Origin: Cystobacterineae bacterium
GTDB lineage: Bacteria; Myxococcota; Myxococcia; Myxococcales; Myxococcaceae
NCBI GenBank assembly: GCA_009782175.1
Contig: WRKR01000027.1
Location: 1 to 38,826 of the forward strand
Length of the DNA: 38,826 bases
Direction of reading: 5' to 3'
Below the pieces are notes generated by a model, which saw nothing but the letters and a program-made list of their open reading frames with translations, was not told the origin of the DNA and did no database searches. Numbering within the stretch: position 1 is the first letter of the stretch; every line of letters starts with the position of its first letter. Below, piece after piece: positions 15,981-26,222 of the stretch. The position numbers and the translations under genes were made by a program.

Positions 15981-16946
15981 TCAGCTATAGCCAGGGGGTT
16001 TGGACTCAAAGCGGTGGGTTGCCGAAATATAGCGCACCGTCCCTGTTTTGGAGCGCATGACAATGGAGTTGGTTTCGCAGCTGCCGCCATAAAAACGCAC
16101 ACCCTTGAGGAATTCGCCGCCCGTCACACCTGTGGCGGCAAACATAACATCCCCCTTGGCCAACTCTTCCGCTGTATAAATGTGGTGTATGTCGTTAATG
16201 CCCATGGTTTTGGCGCGCCGAATTTCTTCCTCGTTTCTGGGTTTAAGCCTTCCTTGAAAATCCCCACCCATGGACTTGAGTGCCGCGGCAGAAATAACGC
16301 CTTCGGGTGCACCGCCTATACCCATCAACACATCCACGTCTGCACTTCCAATGCATGTGGAAACAGCAGCGGCCACGTCGCCATCCTCAATGAGGCGCAC
16401 GCGCGCGCCCACTTCGCGCACGGTGCGAATGAGGGCCTCATGGCGAGGGCGATCTAAAATAATAACGGTTAAGTCTTGAATGGAGCGTTTGAGGGCTTTG
16501 GCGATGCTGGCTAAATTTTCAGCGGGGGATTGGGCCAGGTTGATGTGGCCTTTGGCTTGGGGGCCTACGGCAATTTTTTCCATATAGGTGTCCGGCGCGT
16601 TGAGCAAGCAACCGCGGTAGGCCAGGGCAACCACGGAAATGGCTCCGGGGCGGCCATAGGCACAGAGGTTTGTGCCTTCCAGCGGGTCCAAAGCAATGTC
16701 AATTTGAGGAGCCCCCTGCACGCGGTTGCCCACGCGCTCGCCTATATAAAGCATGGGGGCTTCGTCGCGCTCGCCTTCACCAATCACCACGGTACCATCC
16801 ATTTGTATGGTGTCGAATGCACGCCGCATGGCGTCCACCGCGGCTTGGTCCGCAAGGTTTTTGTCACCGCGCCCCATGAGTCGGGCACAGGCAACGGCCG
16901 CCATTTCTGTAACACGCACCACTTCCAACGCCAGGTTTCTATCCAT
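15981..16946 (-). CDS. glpX: Class II fructose-1,6-bisphosphatase
   Basis: Hydrolyses fructose 1,6-bisphosphate to fructose 6-phosphate in gluconeogenesis; metal-dependent. The 321-residue protein shows the GlpX signatures GEGERDE at 56-62 and DPLEGT at 87-92, plus IGGAPEGVISAAALK and the C-terminal GVRFYGGSCETNSIVMRS. The ATG at 16946 has AAGGAG upstream and the expected MDRNLALEVVRVTE family N-terminus; an upstream start would add 55 unrelated residues lying inside the preceding gene. The start overlaps the end of the thioesterase gene by 8 bp, so the pair is probably translated together. Some bacterial GlpX enzymes also act on sedoheptulose 1,7-bisphosphate; sequence alone does not settle this. 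Confidence 0.95.
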   Translation of the reverse strand: MDRNLALEVVRVTEMAAVACARLMGRGDKNLADQAAVDAMRRAFDTIQMDGTVVIGEGERDEAPMLYIGERVGNRVQGAPQIDIALDPLEGTNLCAYGRPGAISVVALAYRGCLLNAPDTYMEKIAVGPQAKGHINLAQSPAENLASIAKALKRSIQDLTVIILDRPRHEALIRTVREVGARVRLIEDGDVAAAVSTCIGSADVDVLMGIGGAPEGVISAAALKSMGGDFQGRLKPRNEEEIRRAKTMGINDIHHIYTAEELAKGDVMFAATGVTGGEFLKGVRFYGGSCETNSIVMRSKTGTVRYISATHRFESKPPGYS

Positions 16947-17367
16947 GAGCTTCAATCTCCTTTTTGTCCGCGCGTTGCTGTTGAAAAAGGCGAACAGCTG
17001 CATCCGGCAGTCGAGCTGCACGCCCACTTTTTGAAATACACACATGCACTGTTTTGCCTGTGGCCAGAAGCGCTTCTTCCTTGTCCCGACGAAGCTCATA
17101 GGCAAAAACAATGCTCGCCCTTTTTATTTCCTCCACCCATACCTTAAGCTTGAGCAAGTCATCATAGCGCGCCGGTGCCCTATAGCAACATTGGGCCTCC
17201 ACCACAGGAAGCATAAAACCCTCGTCCTCCATCTGCTGATAGCTTCCCCCCAGAGAGCGGAAAAGCTCGCCGCGCGCCTGCTCAAAATAACGAAAGTGGT
17301 TGGCATAATAAACCACCCCCATCTGGTCCGTATCTCCATAAATAACGCGAATGGAAACCTCAATCAT
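16939..17367 (-). CDS. YbgC/FadM-like acyl-CoA thioesterase
   Basis: A 142-residue single hot-dog domain of the 4-hydroxybenzoyl-CoA thioesterase type. The active-site segment YGDTDQMGVVYYANHFRYFEQAR at the N-terminus carries the catalytic Asp and the VVYxANxFxxFExAR helix of the family. The ATG at 17367 fits this N-terminus; a longer reading frame from 17439 lacks family resemblance. The gene is not beside tolQRA-pal, the usual context of ybgC, but sits between a NIPSNAP gene and glpX. It probably hydrolyses an acyl-CoA of short to medium length; the true substrate is unknown. Confidence 0.87.
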   Translation of the reverse strand: MIEVSIRVIYGDTDQMGVVYYANHFRYFEQARGELFRSLGGSYQQMEDEGFMLPVVEAQCCYRAPARYDDLLKLKVWVEEIKRASIVFAYELRRDKEEALLATGKTVHVCISKSGRAARLPDAAVRLFQQQRADKKEIEAHG

Positions 17368-17395
17368 ACATGCAAGCCTAGCACTTTGGGCCTTC

Positions 17396-17710
17396 TCAGT
17401 CCTCACCGCCCAACACAGGACGCATAAAAGAGCGCTCAAAACTCAAAAAACAGCGCGTCTGGCGATAATATTCCATCACCGCTTGGCACTCGGCGTCGCT
17501 GGCTATGGCTATACGGTAAGTTTCATAGGCGGCCAAGGAAGGAAAGGAAAACAGGGCCACAGCGATGTTGTTGGGCCCCTCATGTGGCAAAAAATAACCG
17601 TGGTGCTTGCCCCCAAACTTTTCCACCAACACAATCCACTTTTTTCCATAAGTTTCGAATTCTTTAAGTTTAAAGGGGTCCACCACATAGCGTAGATAAC
17701 ACGTCACCAT
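17396..17710 (-). CDS. NIPSNAP family protein
   Basis: A 104-residue alpha/beta ferredoxin-like (dimeric alpha-beta barrel) protein with the family pattern MVTCYLRYVVDPFKLKEFE at the start, then KFGGKHHGYFLP and FSFPSLAAYETYR. The ATG at 17710 follows AAAGGG by 7 bases; a frame from 17740 would add ten residues. In bacteria the family is often annotated as ABM or NIPSNAP domain protein with unknown small-molecule roles. It lies 28 bp upstream of the thioesterase gene on the same strand. Confidence 0.88.
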   Translation of the reverse strand: MVTCYLRYVVDPFKLKEFETYGKKWIVLVEKFGGKHHGYFLPHEGPNNIAVALFSFPSLAAYETYRIAIASDAECQAVMEYYRQTRCFLSFERSFMRPVLGGED

Positions 17711-17889
17711 TTGAAAACCCTTTCGTGGCCCTTGGGCCATGTGGAGAAATGTTCAACCCAGCCCTTATAGCGCGCTTCAGGAAAAACCTCAGCAGACACT
17801 GTCCAAATAACCCACGGAAAGCCATGCCGGGGTGCCTGTTGAAAACCTGCGGAAACCTTTGAAAAAAACGTGGGGTGCTCGCCCTTCAA
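17704..17889 (-). CDS. Possible 61-residue ORF between mod and the NIPSNAP gene
   Basis: An open frame starting with TTG that overlaps the mod stop (TTGA) and ending 7 bases inside the NIPSNAP start region, so it exactly bridges the gap. The product is rich in aromatic residues (PWVIWTVSAEVF, YKGWVEHFSTWPKG). It matches no family I recognise, and it does not look like the Res subunit of a type III system. It could be a real small gene, a decayed remnant, or chance. Confidence 0.3.
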   Translation of the reverse strand: MKGEHPTFFSKVSAGFQQAPRHGFPWVIWTVSAEVFPEARYKGWVEHFSTWPKGHERVFKW

Positions 17890-19898
17890 AGCAGCTTGAG
17901 GTGGGTGCTGGGGCTATAAGTCCTGAAAATCTGCTCAAGGTTGACCAGCGCAAAATCCCCGCTGAAGCTGCTGTCGCGGAATATGGCATAATGCGGCTTG
18001 CTTTGGGCTATTTCGGTGAGCATTTCATCGCTCAGCGGCTCAAAACAGGCCATGAGGTGGTTGTCTGCGACGGAAAATATGGTTTTTCCATTTGTTTTTC
18101 GCTGCTCAATGGGGTTGGACAATAAAATCCCCAAGTCCAGCATCACCTGAAACAGCAAGTCTTCCGGGCTGCGGCCTTCCTTGAGGGTGTCCACCAGTCC
18201 GTCTAAGTCCATGTGCAAGGTTCCACCCTCGTCTACCATATCCTCCGGCCTATAATAGAGCTCTTTCATGTTGCTGCTGTCGAGTTTCAAAACACGAAAA
18301 CCCGTGTCCAGCGCTTCAATGCCCGGCTTGTGCGCGTTGTCAGCCTTTATTTTTTCCCCGGCACGGCGTATGCGCTCTTTGCCCATTTCGCAAATGTTTT
18401 TATAGCCTGCCGTGGCGGCCTCGCTGCCCTGCGCGCAGCGCTCGGGCAGTTGTACCATAATAAACTTGCGCTTGCCGCCATCTTCAGCGTTGAGTTGCAT
18501 CACCGCATGGGCGGTGGTGGCTGAGCCGGAGAAAAAATCCAAAACAACAGCATGGCTGTCCGTATTGGAAATGTGGAGAAATTCTCTGATCATCTTCGTT
18601 GGTTTTTTGCCGGAACGAAAATCCACGCCCCCCTCGTGGCGAATGTTGCCAAAATCCCCACTCAAGTCATAAAAATTGACGATAGGTTTGTATTTTCGCG
18701 CATGGCCGGACTTCAACTCCTCCAGCCTGTCCAGGGGAATACCGGAATAGAATTGACCTTTGGAGGCGCTTTCTTTTTTGGGGCCCCTAAAATATCGATA
18801 ACCCAAGCCATCTTCGCCTATACCGGCGACTTTATAGAGGCAGCCTAAGCCATCCATCTCTTTTCTGGGGCTTAAAAACCGGTCAAAAAATTTCCCGGAA
18901 GTATTCCCTTTTAAAACACTGCCGGAGGCCCAGGTGTCTTTGAGCCATCCCACCCGCCCCTCGGGGTGTCGCAAAATTTTATATTGCCCGGGTTTAAACA
19001 GGGTGACTTCTTTGGAGCCCAGCCTGAGTTTTTTTCCCTCTTCAAGCTCAATAATTTCATGGCAAAATTTGTTAATATTATATTCTTCAAAAGGTTTTTG
19101 GGGTTTAAATTGCCACTTGTTTTTGGCATAGACCAAAACCTGTTCAATCAGTTTTTGAAAGTCATCCTTCTCATTGAGGGATTTGTTGGCAAACCTCACT
19201 TGTATATAAAAAACATCAACAAGGTTTTCTTCTCCAAATATTTCATTGCATATTTTTTTAAGGTTTTCCACTTCATTGTCATCAATGCTGATGAAAATGA
19301 CGCCATCTTCTGTGAGCAATTCTCTGGCTATTTTAAGCCTTGGATAAAGCATGTTCAGCCAGTCGGTGTGAAAGCGACCGTTGTTGCTTGGGTTTTGAAG
19401 CATGCGGTTGCCATCCTCGTCATGCTCTCCGCTCTTTTTTTGCCATTTGTCTTTGGCCACTTTCCACTTGTCGCTATAAATAAAGTCATGGCCTGTGTTA
19501 TAGGGCGGATCTATATAAACCATTTTAACGCGGCCCCAATAGGCTTCGCGCAGCAGCTTCAACACGTCGAGGTTATCCCCTTCAATATAGAGGTTTTCCG
19601 TGTTGTCAAAGTCCACGCTTTCCTCGCGACAAGGGCGAAGTGTCGCGCAAATGGGCGTATTGGCCAGCAATATGGCCTTCTTTTTGTCCGGCCAACTCAG
19701 CTGATAGCGTTCCTCTTTTCCTGAAACAACATGCGTGTTTATTTCCTGCTGCAGCACATCCGCATCAATGGCGCGCACCAGCAGGCCGTTTTCGTCAAGG
19801 GTTTCGGTCAGGGCATGGGGGAACAAAGCCTTGAGGGTGGCATAGTTACGCTCAGTGAGGCTTGGGGTATGCAGGAGGAGTTTATCGGGTTTGTCCAT
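17886..19898 (-). CDS. Type III-like adenine-specific DNA methyltransferase (Mod), orphan
   Basis: A 670-residue beta-class N6-adenine methyltransferase. Motif IV DPPYNTG (residues 130-136 from the chosen start) comes before the AdoMet-binding motif DFFSGSATTAHA (about 454-465), with the recognition region between them (about 230-420). The N-terminus MDKPDKLLLHTPSLTE...LFPHALTE matches type III Mod proteins, supporting ATG at 19898; a GTG at 19928, one base after the upstream stop, is the alternative. No Res endonuclease/helicase gene is adjacent on either side, so it appears to be a solitary methyltransferase. The recognition region (about 18640-19210) is visibly richer in A and T than the rest. 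It probably methylates a short asymmetric site; the site cannot be predicted. Confidence 0.92.
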   Translation of the reverse strand: MDKPDKLLLHTPSLTERNYATLKALFPHALTETLDENGLLVRAIDADVLQQEINTHVVSGKEERYQLSWPDKKKAILLANTPICATLRPCREESVDFDNTENLYIEGDNLDVLKLLREAYWGRVKMVYIDPPYNTGHDFIYSDKWKVAKDKWQKKSGEHDEDGNRMLQNPSNNGRFHTDWLNMLYPRLKIARELLTEDGVIFISIDDNEVENLKKICNEIFGEENLVDVFYIQVRFANKSLNEKDDFQKLIEQVLVYAKNKWQFKPQKPFEEYNINKFCHEIIELEEGKKLRLGSKEVTLFKPGQYKILRHPEGRVGWLKDTWASGSVLKGNTSGKFFDRFLSPRKEMDGLGCLYKVAGIGEDGLGYRYFRGPKKESASKGQFYSGIPLDRLEELKSGHARKYKPIVNFYDLSGDFGNIRHEGGVDFRSGKKPTKMIREFLHISNTDSHAVVLDFFSGSATTAHAVMQLNAEDGGKRKFIMVQLPERCAQGSEAATAGYKNICEMGKERIRRAGEKIKADNAHKPGIEALDTGFRVLKLDSSNMKELYYRPEDMVDEGGTLHMDLDGLVDTLKEGRSPEDLLFQVMLDLGILLSNPIEQRKTNGKTIFSVADNHLMACFEPLSDEMLTEIAQSKPHYAIFRDSSFSGDFALVNLEQIFRTYSPSTHLKLL

Positions 19899-19929
19899 GG
19901 TTGCTTGTTGTGTATAGCCCAGCTTCACC

Positions 19930-21093
19930 TCAGCCCGGTGGTGAGCTTGGCGTTTCAGGGGCAGTATTGTGGCTTTCGGCCTTCAAAAGCGCGTCCAAAT
20001 CCACGTGTTGCTCAAAGCGTGGCCGCCGGGCGCTCGGGTGGATGCGCCTTATCCATATGGCTTCTACGCGGTGGGGATAGCGTTTTTGAATTTCCTCATA
20101 AATTTCTGGATCCTTCTCCCCATCATCCCCGACGAGAATGAAGCGGACATGCGGGAGGTATTCAAAAATTTCCTGAATTTTTTTAGTTTTATAGGCGGTT
20201 TGAGCCAACCATGCCTCGCTGGCCTTGTCCATGCTGATGCGTTTGGTCAGCAACACACCTCGAGGAAAATGGTTTTGCCCAAGGAACTGCATGAGTGGGG
20301 CATAGAGTTGCCGGGGAGAGCCTGAGAGATAAAACAGGGGAGCGGCCTGGGGCTTGGGGTTGCTGTTTGCAAGCTTTGCATAAAGCTTGGCCATGCCGGG
20401 GACAGCTTGGCGCTGAGCAGGGTTTTTCAAAAAGGTATTTTTCAACAGACGCCTTTTGCTCAAAACCTCAGAAATAAGAATGGTGTCGTCAATGTCCGAA
20501 ATGAGGCCGCGCCTATTTTCCAGGGGGACCACCAAAATATGGCCTTGGCCAAAGGCAGGGTGGATGTGGGAAGAGGGCGCCTGGGCCGCAGTGTGGCCTT
20601 GGGGCGCCGTGCTTTTTCCAGGCGCTGTGTTTTTTTGAGGCACCATGCTTTGGGCAAACACCGGATGCCACCCGGCCTCAAGCCCTTCGGGAATGTGTGC
20701 GTCAACGCGGAAATAGCCTTTGTTATCTGTCCGCGTTTGGAAGTGAAAGGGGCCTATGGAAAGCAGCAAAGGCCAATTTTTGCCTTTCTTATTGGAAAAA
20801 TGGCGAAGGTTCTGTTTCAAATTTTTTCTTGCACTGTCCTCTTTTCTTGCACTGTCCTCTTTTCTTGCACTGTCCGAGGCAGAGGCTTCGGGTTGGGTGC
20901 GCGCTTGAGTGAGGCGGCCTTCAATAAGCAGTTTCTGGCCATTGCTATAGCCCGTATAAAGGCGGATATGGTAGGGGTTGGCCCAGGCACTGGCCTGGGC
21001 AAAAAGCAGAGAGAAGAGCAAGCCTATGGCTGCAAAGTTTTTGGGAATTATCCATTTGAATGGACAACTCCCCCACTTTTCATCCGCACGCAT
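19930..21093 (-). CDS. App1 family (DUF2183) phosphatidate phosphatase-like protein, exported
   Basis: From the ATG at 21093 the 387-residue product has a signal-peptide-like start (hydrophobic AAIGLLFSLLFAQASAWA, likely cut before NPY). The C-terminal half carries HAD-type phosphatase motifs: LISDIDDTIL, YLSGSPRQLY, a YKTKKIQEI lysine, and VGDDGEKDPEIY. This is the App1/DUF2183 pattern; yeast App1 is a Mg-dependent phosphatidate phosphatase. The linker region holds two hexapeptide repeat blocks: DSARKE repeated nearly three times (from DNA at 20828-20875) and a degenerate KNTAPG/KSTAPQ/GHTAAQ block. A GTG at 21126 is an alternative start. It follows the GT28 gene closely and is probably co-transcribed with it. 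Confidence 0.87.
   Translation of the reverse strand: MRADEKWGSCPFKWIIPKNFAAIGLLFSLLFAQASAWANPYHIRLYTGYSNGQKLLIEGRLTQARTQPEASASDSARKEDSARKEDSARKNLKQNLRHFSNKKGKNWPLLLSIGPFHFQTRTDNKGYFRVDAHIPEGLEAGWHPVFAQSMVPQKNTAPGKSTAPQGHTAAQAPSSHIHPAFGQGHILVVPLENRRGLISDIDDTILISEVLSKRRLLKNTFLKNPAQRQAVPGMAKLYAKLANSNPKPQAAPLFYLSGSPRQLYAPLMQFLGQNHFPRGVLLTKRISMDKASEAWLAQTAYKTKKIQEIFEYLPHVRFILVGDDGEKDPEIYEEIQKRYPHRVEAIWIRRIHPSARRPRFEQHVDLDALLKAESHNTAPETPSSPPG
20828..20875. repeat. 18-bp coding tandem repeat in the App1-like gene
   Basis: The plus-strand unit CTTGCACTGTCCTCTTTT occurs twice exactly and then 12 bases of a third copy. The 18-bp period keeps frame and encodes DSARKE repeats, so copy-number change would lengthen or shorten the linker without a frameshift. 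Confidence 0.95.
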
Positions 21094-21133: not shown

Positions 21134-22270
21134 TTATAGTGGTTTTAGCGTGGCTTTCACAATGGTTTCCACAATGTCTTTGGCGGCATGGGGTTTGGCC
21201 ACGGCTTTTTGTTGGCGGCGCATGTGGGCCAGGCGCTCGGGCGTTTGAAACAAGGCTTTGAGTTTAAACAGCAATGAGGCTGCGTCCACGGCTTTTGAGG
21301 CACAACCGGTTTCCAGCAAAAAATCCGCATTGCGCTCCTCCTGGCCTGGAATGGGGGACACCACAAGCATGGGCAGCTGCATGGCCAGGCATTCAGAAGT
21401 TGTCAGACCACCCGGCTTTGTCACCGCAACATCAGCGGCCGCCATCATCCTCTCAATGCTTCTCGTAAACCCCTGGGGGAAAACACGCCCTGGGTGGCGC
21501 GTTGCAATTTCTTGGAGTTTGCCCAGCAAGGCTTCATTGCGACCGGCCAACGCCAAAATTTGCACCTCTTCCATGGTTTTGGCCACATGCTCTACCAGGC
21601 TCTCAATGCCGCCCACACCAAAGCCGCCCGACATCATCAACAAAGTCCGCTTGTCCGGTGAAAGCCCCAACTCCAGGGCCGCCGCCTCGCGAGAGAGTGC
21701 TTGGCTAAACTGTGGCATAATGGCGATGCCCGTCACATGGATGTGCTCCCTGCCCATACCTCGCCCCTCAAGCCGGGCCGCCACCTCCTCGCTGGCAACA
21801 AAATAACCTTGCATATGCGGGTGCAACCAAAAGCCGTGTACATCAAAATCCGTCACGTGTACCCATACGGGGGGTGTTGGTTTCCCCTTTCGAAGGCGGC
21901 GTGAGAGCAACTCGGCCGGCAGAAAATGCGTGCACACAATGACGTCAGGAGCCAGGTGCGCCATTTCTTTTTTGAGTTTTTGTGTGTTGAGCCTCTCCAA
22001 CTGGCGGCGGAAGCGATTGAAGAGCGACTTGGGTGCCGCGTCCGTGTGCTGATAGAGATAGGACCAGACTTCAGGCGCTTTTTCTACGAGGCCCATATAG
22101 CCCCTGCTATAAAAATTGCGAAAGCCCTTGGATACCAAATCCATCACATCCACGTGCACCGCTTCTATGCCCGGCATTTGGGCCGCAGCCGCACACAGCG
22201 CCTGGGCCGCACGCAGATGACCTGCTCCAGCGGATACACTCAAAACCACCATTCGCAAAGGTTTTTCCAT
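21134..22270 (-). CDS. MGDG-synthase-like GT28 glycosyltransferase
   Basis: A 378-residue GT-B glycosyltransferase of the MGDG synthase/UgtP group, which transfers a sugar from UDP-hexose to diacylglycerol at the membrane face. The N-terminal SVSAGAGHLRAAQAL (about 11-25) is the GAGH(x)xAA signature of the MGDG synthase N-domain. The C-terminal domain has MMSGGFGVGG and the donor-binding AVTKPGGLTTSECLAM, followed by PIPGQEERN. UDP-GlcNAc-using MurG is a related alternative, but the N-domain fits MGDG synthase better. The ATG at 22270 has only a weak ribosome binding site. The 13-bp repeat array lies immediately upstream and may cover its promoter. Confidence 0.88.
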   Translation of the reverse strand: MEKPLRMVVLSVSAGAGHLRAAQALCAAAAQMPGIEAVHVDVMDLVSKGFRNFYSRGYMGLVEKAPEVWSYLYQHTDAAPKSLFNRFRRQLERLNTQKLKKEMAHLAPDVIVCTHFLPAELLSRRLRKGKPTPPVWVHVTDFDVHGFWLHPHMQGYFVASEEVAARLEGRGMGREHIHVTGIAIMPQFSQALSREAAALELGLSPDKRTLLMMSGGFGVGGIESLVEHVAKTMEEVQILALAGRNEALLGKLQEIATRHPGRVFPQGFTRSIERMMAAADVAVTKPGGLTTSECLAMQLPMLVVSPIPGQEERNADFLLETGCASKAVDAASLLFKLKALFQTPERLAHMRRQQKAVAKPHAAKDIVETIVKATLKPL

Positions 22271-22309
22271 GATGAATTGCTGTCTTTAATTAAAAAATAC
22301 GCTTAATTT

Positions 22310-22611
22310 AACAATAGAACTTAACAATATAACTCAATAACATGACTTAACAGTATGACTTAATAACATGAGTCAACAACATGAGTCAATAACAGAAGTC
22401 AATAACATGACTCAATAACATGACTCAATAACATGACTCAATAACATGACTCAAGAACATGACTCAATAACATGACTCAAGAACATGACTCAAGAACATG
22501 ACTCAAAAACATGAGTCAAAAACATGACTCAAAAACATGAGTCAAAAACATGAGTCAAAAACATGAGTCAAAAACATGAGTCAAAAACATGAGTCAACAA
22601 CAGAATTTAAA
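22310..22611. repeat. 13-bp tandem array carrying TGA(C/G)TCA, about 23 units
   Basis: From 22365 to 22598 there are 18 consecutive units with an exact 13-bp period, consensus AACATGA(C/G)TCAA followed by T, G, A or C. Seventeen contain the pseudo-palindrome TGACTCA (9) or TGAGTCA (8), its reverse complement; the unit at 22391 reads AACAGAAGTCAAT. Degenerate units extend left to 22310 with spacings of 13, 16, 10 and 16, and one follows on the right (22599-22611). C-type units cluster at 22404-22507 and G-type units at 22534-22598, as expected from stepwise duplication. The array lies between the end of the CoA-disulfide-reductase gene and the start of the GT28 gene. It is not coding: 13 is not a multiple of 3 and stops recur. 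Confidence 0.97.
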
Positions 22612-22677
22612 CCTTTTGGGCTTAAGGATATGATGGTTTCAACAGAGGGCAACCTTTATGAGAGTGTTTTAAGGGGT

Positions 22678-25146
22678 TTATATAAATAGGTTGACGTTGG
22701 CGTTTTCTGCACACTCCATATAAGAGGCCACACCGCCTATGCTGCATTCATCCAACAATTCTTCTCTTTTTATCCCCATCACGTCCATTGACATTTGGCA
22801 TCCCATAAATTCAACACCTTGCTCCAAGGCTTGGGTGCGCAAGGACTCCAGTGAATCGATGCCTTTTTCCTTCATGAGATAGCGCATCATTTTGGCTCCA
22901 ATGCCCAACATATTCATTTTGGAAAGTTTCAGCTTTAAGGAGTGAGAGGGAAGCATCCAGGAAAACATTTTGCCAAACAAATCCTTTTCTGCGCGAGGCT
23001 TTTTGGATTTTTTAATGACATTCAAACCCCAAAAAGTAAAAAATATGGTTACTTTCTTTCCCGTGGCAGCTGCGCCATTGGCCAACACAAAGGTGGCCAA
23101 AGCTTTGTCTAAGTCATCACTAAACATAATAAAGGTTTTGGCATTTTTTTCATTTGTCAACATGTTGGACATGCGCTGAGGCTCAGGGGTTTTCTTTTCT
23201 ATAACCACCGTAAACTGTCCTTTGTCGGAGGTGCCAGATATCCACATGTTGCCCGTAGACTTGCACCAAGCTTCAGCATCTTTAGGAAAGCCAGCATCGG
23301 TTGACATTATTTCAACACATTCTCCTTCGGCCATTTCATCCATCACCTTTTTCAGTTTGAGAATGGGGCCCGGACATTGCAGCCCGCAAGCATCTATTTT
23401 TGTTGTTTTCATGTCTTGAGTTCTTTTTTGTGGTTCAACAGCTGAAGCTTTTAAGTTTTCTTTGTTGAAATGCTGTTTTTTTCCTTCGGTTTTGATGGGT
23501 GCAACAGCCAGGGCATAGGTTTTATATCCACCCGAGAGGTTTTTTATATTTTCAAAGCCCCGCTGCGTTAATATTTGCAATGCAATATATCCTCGCAAGC
23601 CCACCTGACAATATATATATATGGGTTTGTTTTTGGGGATTTCATCCAAGCGTGTGCGCAATTCATCCAGCGGAATGTTCAATGCGTGGGGGATATATTG
23701 TCCGCTGGCCCGTTCTTCTCGGGAGCGCACATCCAAGAGGGTTATTTCTTTGGGGTTTAAGTCTGCTATTTCTCGCCATTGAAAGACGGGCATTCGTCCG
23801 TTGATAATGTTGGAGGCCACATATCCGGCAATGGCAATCGGATCTTTCGCGGAAGAAAACGGTGGTGCATAACTGTGTTCCACTTTCATCAAGTCAAACA
23901 CGCTGCCACCCAATTTAATTAACAAAGCCAGCTGATCCACGCGTTTGTCTACGCCTTCATAGCCTATGCCTTGCGCACCATATATTTTTCCAGTTTGAGG
24001 GTGAAATGTCAGCTTGATGCTCAAGGGTCTGCTGCCTGGATAATAGCCTGCATGGGAAGCGGAATGGGTGGTGGAGCTTTGATAAGGAATATTCAGTTGT
24101 TTCAGTTTTTTCGCAGCCAAACCCGTTGTGGCCACGGTCAGCTCAAACACTTTGGCAATGGCTGTCCCTATGGCGCCTTCATATTTTTCTATGTTGCCTT
24201 TCACCATGTTGTCGGCAACCAAACGTCCTTGTCTGTTGGCTGGGTTTGCTAAATAATTCAACCACGCTTTGCCTGTCAGGGGATGAGGAAATTCAATGGC
24301 ATCGCCCACGGCATAGATGTCTTTCACAGAAGTTTCCAAATATTCATTCACCCAAATGCCGCCGGTTTCACCTGTTTTCAGGCCGGCCCTTTTGGCCAAT
24401 GCGGTTTCGGGGCGCACCCCCATGGATAAAATAACCATATCCGCAGGAAGGGTTTTGCCGCTTTTTAGGCAAACGTTGAGCTTGCCGTCTTTCTGCTCAA
24501 AACGTTCAACGGTTTGTTCCAAATAAAGGTGGACTCCTTTTTCTGACAAATGGTGGTGCACATGTGAGGCTATGGAAAAATCCACAGGCGCCATCACTTG
24601 CTTTGCCATTTCTATCATGGAAACTTCCGCGCCTGCTTGATGCAGGTTTTCAGCCATTTCAAGGCCAATAAACCCTGCACCCACCACCACGGCTTGTTGG
24701 ACCTTGTGTGTCTGAAGATGGTTTTTGATGCGGTCGGTGTCCACCACATCGCGCAAAACAAAAACCCCTTCTAATTCAACACCTTCTAACGGTGGTTTGG
24801 CCGGAAAAGCGCCGGGTGAAAGCAGCAGTTTATCATATGTTTCAATATAGGTTTTGCCGTCTGCCCCTTGGACGGTTATTGTTTTTCCATGGCTGTCAAT
24901 GTGGATAACGGTATTTTCAACCCTGATATCCACATTAAACCTTTTTCCAAATGAAGCAGGGGTTTGCAGAAAAAGCCTTTCCCGCTCTTGGATGGTTCCG
25001 CCTATATAATAGGGCAATCCACAATTGGCATATGAAATATATTTGCCTTTTTCAAAAACAATAATTTCAGCATGTTCATCTATTCTGCGGATTCTTGCTG
25101 CTGCAGTGGCTCCTCCGGCGACGCCTCCTACAATTAAGTATTTCAC
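22678..25146 (-). CDS. CoA-disulfide reductase fused to rhodanese, TusA and DsrE-like domains
   Basis: An 822-residue four-part sulfur-transfer flavoprotein. Residues 1-445 are an FAD/NAD(P)H disulfide reductase (GGVAGGATAAAR, active-site Cys42 in SYANCGLPYYIGG, second nucleotide site VVVGAGFIGLEMAENL, and YAVGDA). Residues 455-555 are a rhodanese domain with Cys513 in YCQVGLRG. Residues 583-652 are a TusA domain with CGLQCPGP (Cys587, Cys591). Residues 670-822 are DsrE/F-like, with candidate cysteines 783, 801 and 812. All key cysteines are present. The same domain order is known in Firmicutes and anaerobes; it likely reduces CoA disulfide/persulfide and relays sulfane sulfur. The start is GTG at 25146, preceded by GGAAAGAGA. 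Homologues have been linked to polysulfide handling. Confidence 0.95.
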   Translation of the reverse strand: MKYLIVGGVAGGATAAARIRRIDEHAEIIVFEKGKYISYANCGLPYYIGGTIQERERLFLQTPASFGKRFNVDIRVENTVIHIDSHGKTITVQGADGKTYIETYDKLLLSPGAFPAKPPLEGVELEGVFVLRDVVDTDRIKNHLQTHKVQQAVVVGAGFIGLEMAENLHQAGAEVSMIEMAKQVMAPVDFSIASHVHHHLSEKGVHLYLEQTVERFEQKDGKLNVCLKSGKTLPADMVILSMGVRPETALAKRAGLKTGETGGIWVNEYLETSVKDIYAVGDAIEFPHPLTGKAWLNYLANPANRQGRLVADNMVKGNIEKYEGAIGTAIAKVFELTVATTGLAAKKLKQLNIPYQSSTTHSASHAGYYPGSRPLSIKLTFHPQTGKIYGAQGIGYEGVDKRVDQLALLIKLGGSVFDLMKVEHSYAPPFSSAKDPIAIAGYVASNIINGRMPVFQWREIADLNPKEITLLDVRSREERASGQYIPHALNIPLDELRTRLDEIPKNKPIYIYCQVGLRGYIALQILTQRGFENIKNLSGGYKTYALAVAPIKTEGKKQHFNKENLKASAVEPQKRTQDMKTTKIDACGLQCPGPILKLKKVMDEMAEGECVEIMSTDAGFPKDAEAWCKSTGNMWISGTSDKGQFTVVIEKKTPEPQRMSNMLTNEKNAKTFIMFSDDLDKALATFVLANGAAATGKKVTIFFTFWGLNVIKKSKKPRAEKDLFGKMFSWMLPSHSLKLKLSKMNMLGIGAKMMRYLMKEKGIDSLESLRTQALEQGVEFMGCQMSMDVMGIKREELLDECSIGGVASYMECAENANVNLFI

Positions 25147-25232: not shown

Positions 25233-25292
25233 TGGGCAAAACCACGGACAAAACCACGGACAAATACGCGGACAAATACATGGGAAAACACA
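25233..25292. repeat. 12-bp degenerate tandem repeat, five units
   Basis: Units related to CGGACAAAACCA recur at a 12-bp period, drifting to CGGACAAATACG and CGGACAAATACA. It lies in the 158-bp gap between the lipid-kinase gene and the CoA-disulfide-reductase gene, upstream of the latter. A 70-codon open frame runs through it on the minus strand (FVRVFVRGFVRGF), but it overlaps the kinase gene end and looks like a by-product of the repeat. Confidence 0.85.
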
Positions 25293-25304: not shown

Positions 25305-26222
25305 TTAAACGCACAAGCGTATGCTTTGTGGCAGCACGCGTATGCTGCAAGGCAGTTTGCCGGGCTGTTCGCCATCGCAGTCAATGAGTACCTCTTCTTT
25401 GGAGCGCGCCGTCAAGGCCTTGCAGGTATATTGCTGTGTGCGGCTAAAGCGCGTGTGGGCTCCGGAATAAATGCTGCGGTTCTTCCACACAAAGTCCGAA
25501 AGCCCATAGTCGGACCATAGGGTTACATTCAACAGGCCATCCCTCACATTGGCCTCAGGTGCCACTTTCATGCCTCCTCCAAAATAAGCACCATTGGCTA
25601 CCGTCAAAGTTGTTATAGGCCGCCGCTCAAAATTCCCGCCGTCCATGCACAGCTCTACCTCTTTGTCGGCATAGCGCATAAACACGCGGAGGGAGGCCAG
25701 CATAAATGACATTTTTCCACCCAAAGCCTTGGTGGTCTCATTGGCACGCTTCACAATTTCACCTGAAACCCCAAAGCTGCATTCATTGATAAAATATCTG
25801 GAGTGCGGCTTCCCATCCACGCCTTCGCATTCCAAAAACCCCACATCCACAGGCACCGTCTTCGCCAGGCGTATGCGCTCGAAAGCTTCATCCAACTTCA
25901 ATGTCCAACCAAAAGTTCTGCGAAAGTCACACCCCGTTCCCCGCGGCAAAACGGCCAAACAGGCATCGGGCGCTATGGGTCCCTTCTCATCAAAAAAACC
26001 ATTGACCACTTCATTGAGAGTCCCATCTCCTCCCACGGCCACAATGCAGTTATATCCACCGCGCAAAGCCCAACGCGTCAACCGTATTGCATCCATGGGC
26101 TGCTCCGTAAATGCACAGCTTATTTCACCCAGGCTGCGCATGCCTTGAGCGTGGATTTCTGCCCAACGCCTGCCCGTCTCGCCATTGGCGCTATATGCGT
26201 TGACAACAAAAAAAATCCTCAT
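25305..26222 (-). CDS. Diacylglycerol/lipid kinase family protein (YegS/DgkB type)
   Basis: A 305-residue protein of the diacylglycerol-kinase catalytic family, which phosphorylates diacylglycerol or related lipids with ATP. The hallmark GGDGTLNEVVNG at 64-75 and PRGTGCDFRRTFG at 93-105 are intact, as are NECSFGVSGEIVKR and VANGAYFGGGMKVAPEANVRDG. The C-terminal IDCDGEQPGKLP segment matches the final DGE motif. The ATG at 26222 follows AAAGG by 8 bases. It lies 42 bp downstream of aspS. The true lipid substrate (diacylglycerol, phosphatidylglycerol, sphingoid base) is not determined by sequence. Confidence 0.93.
   Translation of the reverse strand: MRIFFVVNAYSANGETGRRWAEIHAQGMRSLGEISCAFTEQPMDAIRLTRWALRGGYNCIVAVGGDGTLNEVVNGFFDEKGPIAPDACLAVLPRGTGCDFRRTFGWTLKLDEAFERIRLAKTVPVDVGFLECEGVDGKPHSRYFINECSFGVSGEIVKRANETTKALGGKMSFMLASLRVFMRYADKEVELCMDGGNFERRPITTLTVANGAYFGGGMKVAPEANVRDGLLNVTLWSDYGLSDFVWKNRSIYSGAHTRFSRTQQYTCKALTARSKEEVLIDCDGEQPGKLPCSIRVLPQSIRLCV

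Follow-up and report, generated by a model that had tools for sequence, protein, structure and literature searches.

A long 13-bp repeat array upstream of a GT28-type glycosyltransferase gene in a Cystobacterineae genome is probably a young intergenic minisatellite

Results

Position and composition of the array

Within the window analyzed, a stretch of 38,826 nucleotides, an array of 13-bp units lies upstream of a GT28-type glycosyltransferase gene, and we consider it to be a young, lineage-specific intergenic minisatellite of the VNTR type, seen in one genome, that spread by slippage or unequal exchange (probability about 0.8). On the plus strand, 21 units with the consensus TGASTCAANAACA follow each other in a single register at 22330-22602. 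TRF reported a period of 13, 20.8 copies, 90% matches and a score of 346, with the exact copy number being uncertain because the draft assembly consists of 65 contigs. As the preliminary description had stated, 18 consecutive units (22369-22602) stand in exact 13-bp register and 17 of them contain an exact TGASTCA, the unit at 22395 having GAAGTCA instead. The whole window contains 18 exact TGASTCA motifs, 17 of them in the array, compared with a mean of 3.06 and a maximum of 8 in shuffled sequences. Irregular spacings of 10, 13 and 16 bp had been described for flanking degenerate copies, but the left copies at 22304, 22317, 22330, 22343 and 22356 all fall on the 13-bp register of the array. 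Nor does the array occupy the whole leader, as had been thought; it covers 22304-22602 of the intergenic gap 22271-22677. It is non-coding, being located between the open reading frames 21134-22270 and 22678-25146, and has a GC content of 30%.

The array and its neighbors comprise the following features, where G001 is a genome of the same genus.

21134-22270, minus strand: GT28-type glycosyltransferase gene (MGDG_synth and Glyco_tran_28_C), downstream of the array, with an 83% ortholog in G001 that lacks the array
22304-22329, plus strand: two strongly decayed units, TAATTTAACAATA and GAACTTAACAATA, in the same 13-bp register as the array
22330-22407, plus strand: six units, mostly moderately decayed, with changes in dyad arms and spacer
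22408-22602, plus strand: homogeneous core of 15 units TGASTCAANAACA with five variants
22678-25146, minus strand: gene for a Pyr_redox/rhodanese/TusA/DsrE fusion protein that groups with Bacteroidota; not present at the corresponding locus of G001
25237-25280, plus strand: small array of 12-bp repeats on the opposite side of the redox gene
25305-26222, minus strand: diacylglycerol kinase family gene (YegS type, DAGK), which in G001 lies directly upstream of GT28

The five unit variants of the core differ only at position 4, the dyad centre (C or G), and at position 9 in the spacer (A, C, G or T), and the drift noted earlier at the dyad centre and at one spacer base holds for the core.

Variation among units

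Comparison of adjacent units over the whole array gave 25 differences, compared to 38.0 when their order is shuffled (P = 5e-5), and in the core alone 8 differences were counted compared to 17.2 in shuffled order (P = 3.5e-4). Such greater likeness between neighboring units is the expected outcome of local duplication. Among the eight units on the left (22304-22407), changes affected 10 of 48 dyad-arm sites and 4 of 40 spacer sites; the arms are therefore not protected, and the special conservation of the dyad that had been proposed was not borne out. Variable sites are confined to fewer columns in the core than simple slippage would lead one to expect. In a simple slippage simulation, only about 1% of five-variant arrays had no more than two variable columns, and all six dyad-arm columns stayed unchanged in about 5%, although this test for concentration was chosen post hoc, after the data had been seen, and the residue is only weakly unexplained.

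Gene neighborhood and comparison with congeners

Along the minus strand, AspRS is followed by DAGK (YegS-type lipid kinase), the redox fusion gene, the array, GT28, APP1 and a mod gene (N6_N4_Mtase). A Pfam scan of 19 proteins of the window matched 18 of them to a family. In G001, the sole congener with an orthologous locus, the order is AspRS-DAGK-GT28-APP1 with a gap of 68 bp between DAGK and GT28, and redox gene, array and mod are absent there; for a second congener, G002, no full-length GT28 ortholog was obtained.

The array (30% GC) and the redox gene (45% GC) are richer in AT than DAGK, AspRS, GT28 and APP1 (52-56% GC), and the redox gene product is 73-75% identical to a protein from a Dysgonamonadaceae MAG. 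In the phylogenetic tree, the redox protein groups with Bacteroidota (support 96/94), full-length homologs from congeners are placed outside that group, and a third homolog, a partial one from G001 (L066) with a long branch, is weakly placed beside it. Due to this grouping, we regard the array segment as lineage-specific and probably acquired. In the simplest reading, a foreign redox gene would have been inserted and the array would have grown in the adjoining non-coding DNA, the comparison resting on one genome and loss from G001 being the alternative. To see whether the array could have arrived together with the redox gene from a Bacteroidota donor, the 3' flanks of 14 Bacteroidota redox homologs were inspected; they contain no such array, with the flank of the closest homolog (L072) ending 109 bp past the gene.

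Some other features of this region were noted. The mod gene (17886-19928, type III-like) has no evident res gene. In G001, it was not found in the interval that separates the APP1 and 4HBT genes, which holds about 1.6 kb of different sequence. Within the APP1 coding sequence (20824-20875) there is an in-frame 18-bp repeat of 2.9 perfect copies, and this genome commonly has coding repeats whose period is divisible by three.

Uniqueness of the array

In the genome (2.70 Mb), neither the 20-bp two-unit motif (up to 3 mismatches) nor the pair TGASTCA-N6-TGASTCA (any 6-bp spacer, up to 1 mismatch) was encountered outside the array. Near-matches to a single unit (up to 1 mismatch) amounted to a few dozen off the array, compared with 18 for a reversed-pattern control, and nearly all of the 26 that were inspected lie within long reading frames. 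When 60 relatives were searched for the two-unit motif, the array was absent and only scattered chance matches at 2-3 mismatches appeared. The preliminary description had suggested such a search of genome and relatives, with absence of the motif elsewhere pointing to slippage, and this is how it turned out. The exact two-unit motif gave no match in the genome_contigs or viral_contigs collections, in scans that may omit records very near this genome, and no publication describing a comparable array turned up in the literature search.

A repeat-rich genome

TRF analysis of 839 kb sampled from the genome (score of at least 50) revealed 233 arrays, corresponding to 27.8 per 100 kb; 89 of these are non-coding, with periods that peak at 13-16 bp. 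The array studied here is the highest-copy non-coding one in this sample and its 20.8 copies are about twice those of any other. Among the non-coding arrays with units of 10-30 bp, 25 of 74 contain a dyad of at least 7 bp, compared to 18.9 expected. In smaller samples of the congeners, the density was 10.3 arrays per 100 kb for G001 and 14.9 for G002, a contrast that is approximate because many of their contigs are short.

Loss of mismatch repair was considered as a cause of the many arrays and rejected, MutS being present. SbcD (TIGR00619) was not detected in the three small-genome congeners G000, G001 and G002, and it was found in two family members with larger genomes. The absence of SbcD alone does not explain the array load, since congeners also without SbcD have fewer arrays.

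Two other repeat loci were observed. In L117 (G000:C1:140000-159999), CRISPR-like arrays with the repeat GTTTCAATCCACGCGCCCGTGAGGGCGCGAC and a period of about 65 bp are located at 16734-18861, and in L135 (G000:C26:10000-29999), a 78-bp repeat of 11.3 copies lies at 17527-18405 within a long reading frame that likely encodes a repeat protein.

Predicted folding and alternative explanations

Both strands of the array are predicted to fold into a nested ladder of hairpins in which C-units pair with G-units, with MFE z-scores relative to dinucleotide shuffles of -6.4 (sense RNA) and -7.7 (DNA), and the sense strand has three terminator-like stem/T-run sites. These properties would suit a structure element, a transcribed ladder of 7-bp stems tuning readthrough or translation of GT28. 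However, when the dyad-centre base was permuted among units, the energy hardly changed (-91.4 observed compared to -89.5 ± 1.9; 29 of 200 permutations as low), and pairing is complete whatever the order of the C- and G-units, provided that they are equal in number, because adjacent unlike units can always pair and drop out. The ladder thus follows from the mixture of C- and G-units and gives no evidence of selection, so that RNA structure as a selected feature was not supported. In addition, no known RNA family of Rfam was detected in the window or matched the array, and the array is absent from G001, and we therefore consider a structure element very unlikely. Similarly improbable is an operator array, in which a dimeric protein bound to each TGASTCA would control GT28-APP1-mod and copy number would set the response. 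The 17 exact dyads, centre changes that preserve the dyad, the location immediately upstream of genes that run in the same direction and the invariant arm columns of the core (about 5% in the neutral simulation) speak for an operator. Yet paired motif copies occur at no other promoter or elsewhere in the genome, single near-matches lie mostly inside reading frames, G001 retains DAGK-GT28-APP1 without the array, the arms have decayed in the left units, and 7-bp dyads are common in the arrays of this genome. Furthermore, operator sites would not lie on one face of the helix, because 13 bp correspond to about 1.24 helical turns.

The array, with its directly repeated units and regularly phased dyads, is also reminiscent of plasmid-origin iterons or parC-type centromere repeats, and an iteron-like replication origin or partition site was therefore weighed as well. 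In contrast to those systems, the spacing is 13 bp, the surroundings are chromosomal and housekeeping, no initiator or partition gene is linked to the array (Rep, Par and ribbon-helix-helix domains were absent from the 19 window proteins scanned), and the array is not conserved in congeners, which makes this explanation extremely improbable. Of the three readings offered in the preliminary description, slippage is thus the supported one, and nothing was found to support a binding-protein regulon or an iteron-like segregation site.

Template switching in quasipalindromes is known to turn imperfect inverted repeats more perfect (PMC7202029, PMC8794818), and neighboring dyads of the array could in like manner template C-to-G changes at their centres, although the known hotspots are imperfect inverted repeats and not tandem arrays, so that the parallel is only suggestive. 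That the dyad array edits itself in this way, by replication template switching in nascent-strand hairpins, seems unlikely to us. A C/C or G/G mispair between neighboring units would be copied into a C/G pair, the centre would toggle between C and G, and the arms would stay fixed. If this were true, the array would drift to an equal mixture of C and G and to a foldable ladder without selection, and the lack of detected SbcD, a part of a hairpin nuclease, could let such a self-editing array persist. In other arrays, complement changes were found at 2 of 3 changed dyad centres and in 45 of 310 cases elsewhere, numbers that at the centres represent few cases.

A young minisatellite as the best explanation

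The array resembles bacterial intergenic minisatellites and the VNTR loci employed in MLVA typing in that it consists of non-coding, head-to-tail 13-bp units (within the roughly 10-60 bp of such loci), is locally homogenised, has a decayed edge and is lineage-specific. It differs in a copy number that is large for this genome and in a unit that happens to contain a 7-bp dyad; it is ordinary in kind and unusually long for this genome.

For the minisatellite reading, we propose that the foreign redox gene with AT-rich flanks came between DAGK and GT28, a difference seen against G001 whose direction would be that of an insertion, and that replication slippage or unequal exchange then duplicated the 13-bp unit many times within the newly arrived non-coding DNA. 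The left edge would be the older part, which drifted freely, and the core and right side would be recent and homogenised. A dedicated binding protein would not be required, and presumably none exists. The array probably sits in the GT28 leader or in a redox-GT28 intercistronic RNA, and it may affect GT28 expression only incidentally. For the earlier suggestion that its copy number could change how strongly the genes downstream are expressed, no support was found.

In summary, this case illustrates that even a striking dyad repeat can be nothing more than an ordinary minisatellite when the genome is rich in repeats. The array would serve as a strain-typing marker, and it could be a test case for template-switch mutation within tandem arrays.
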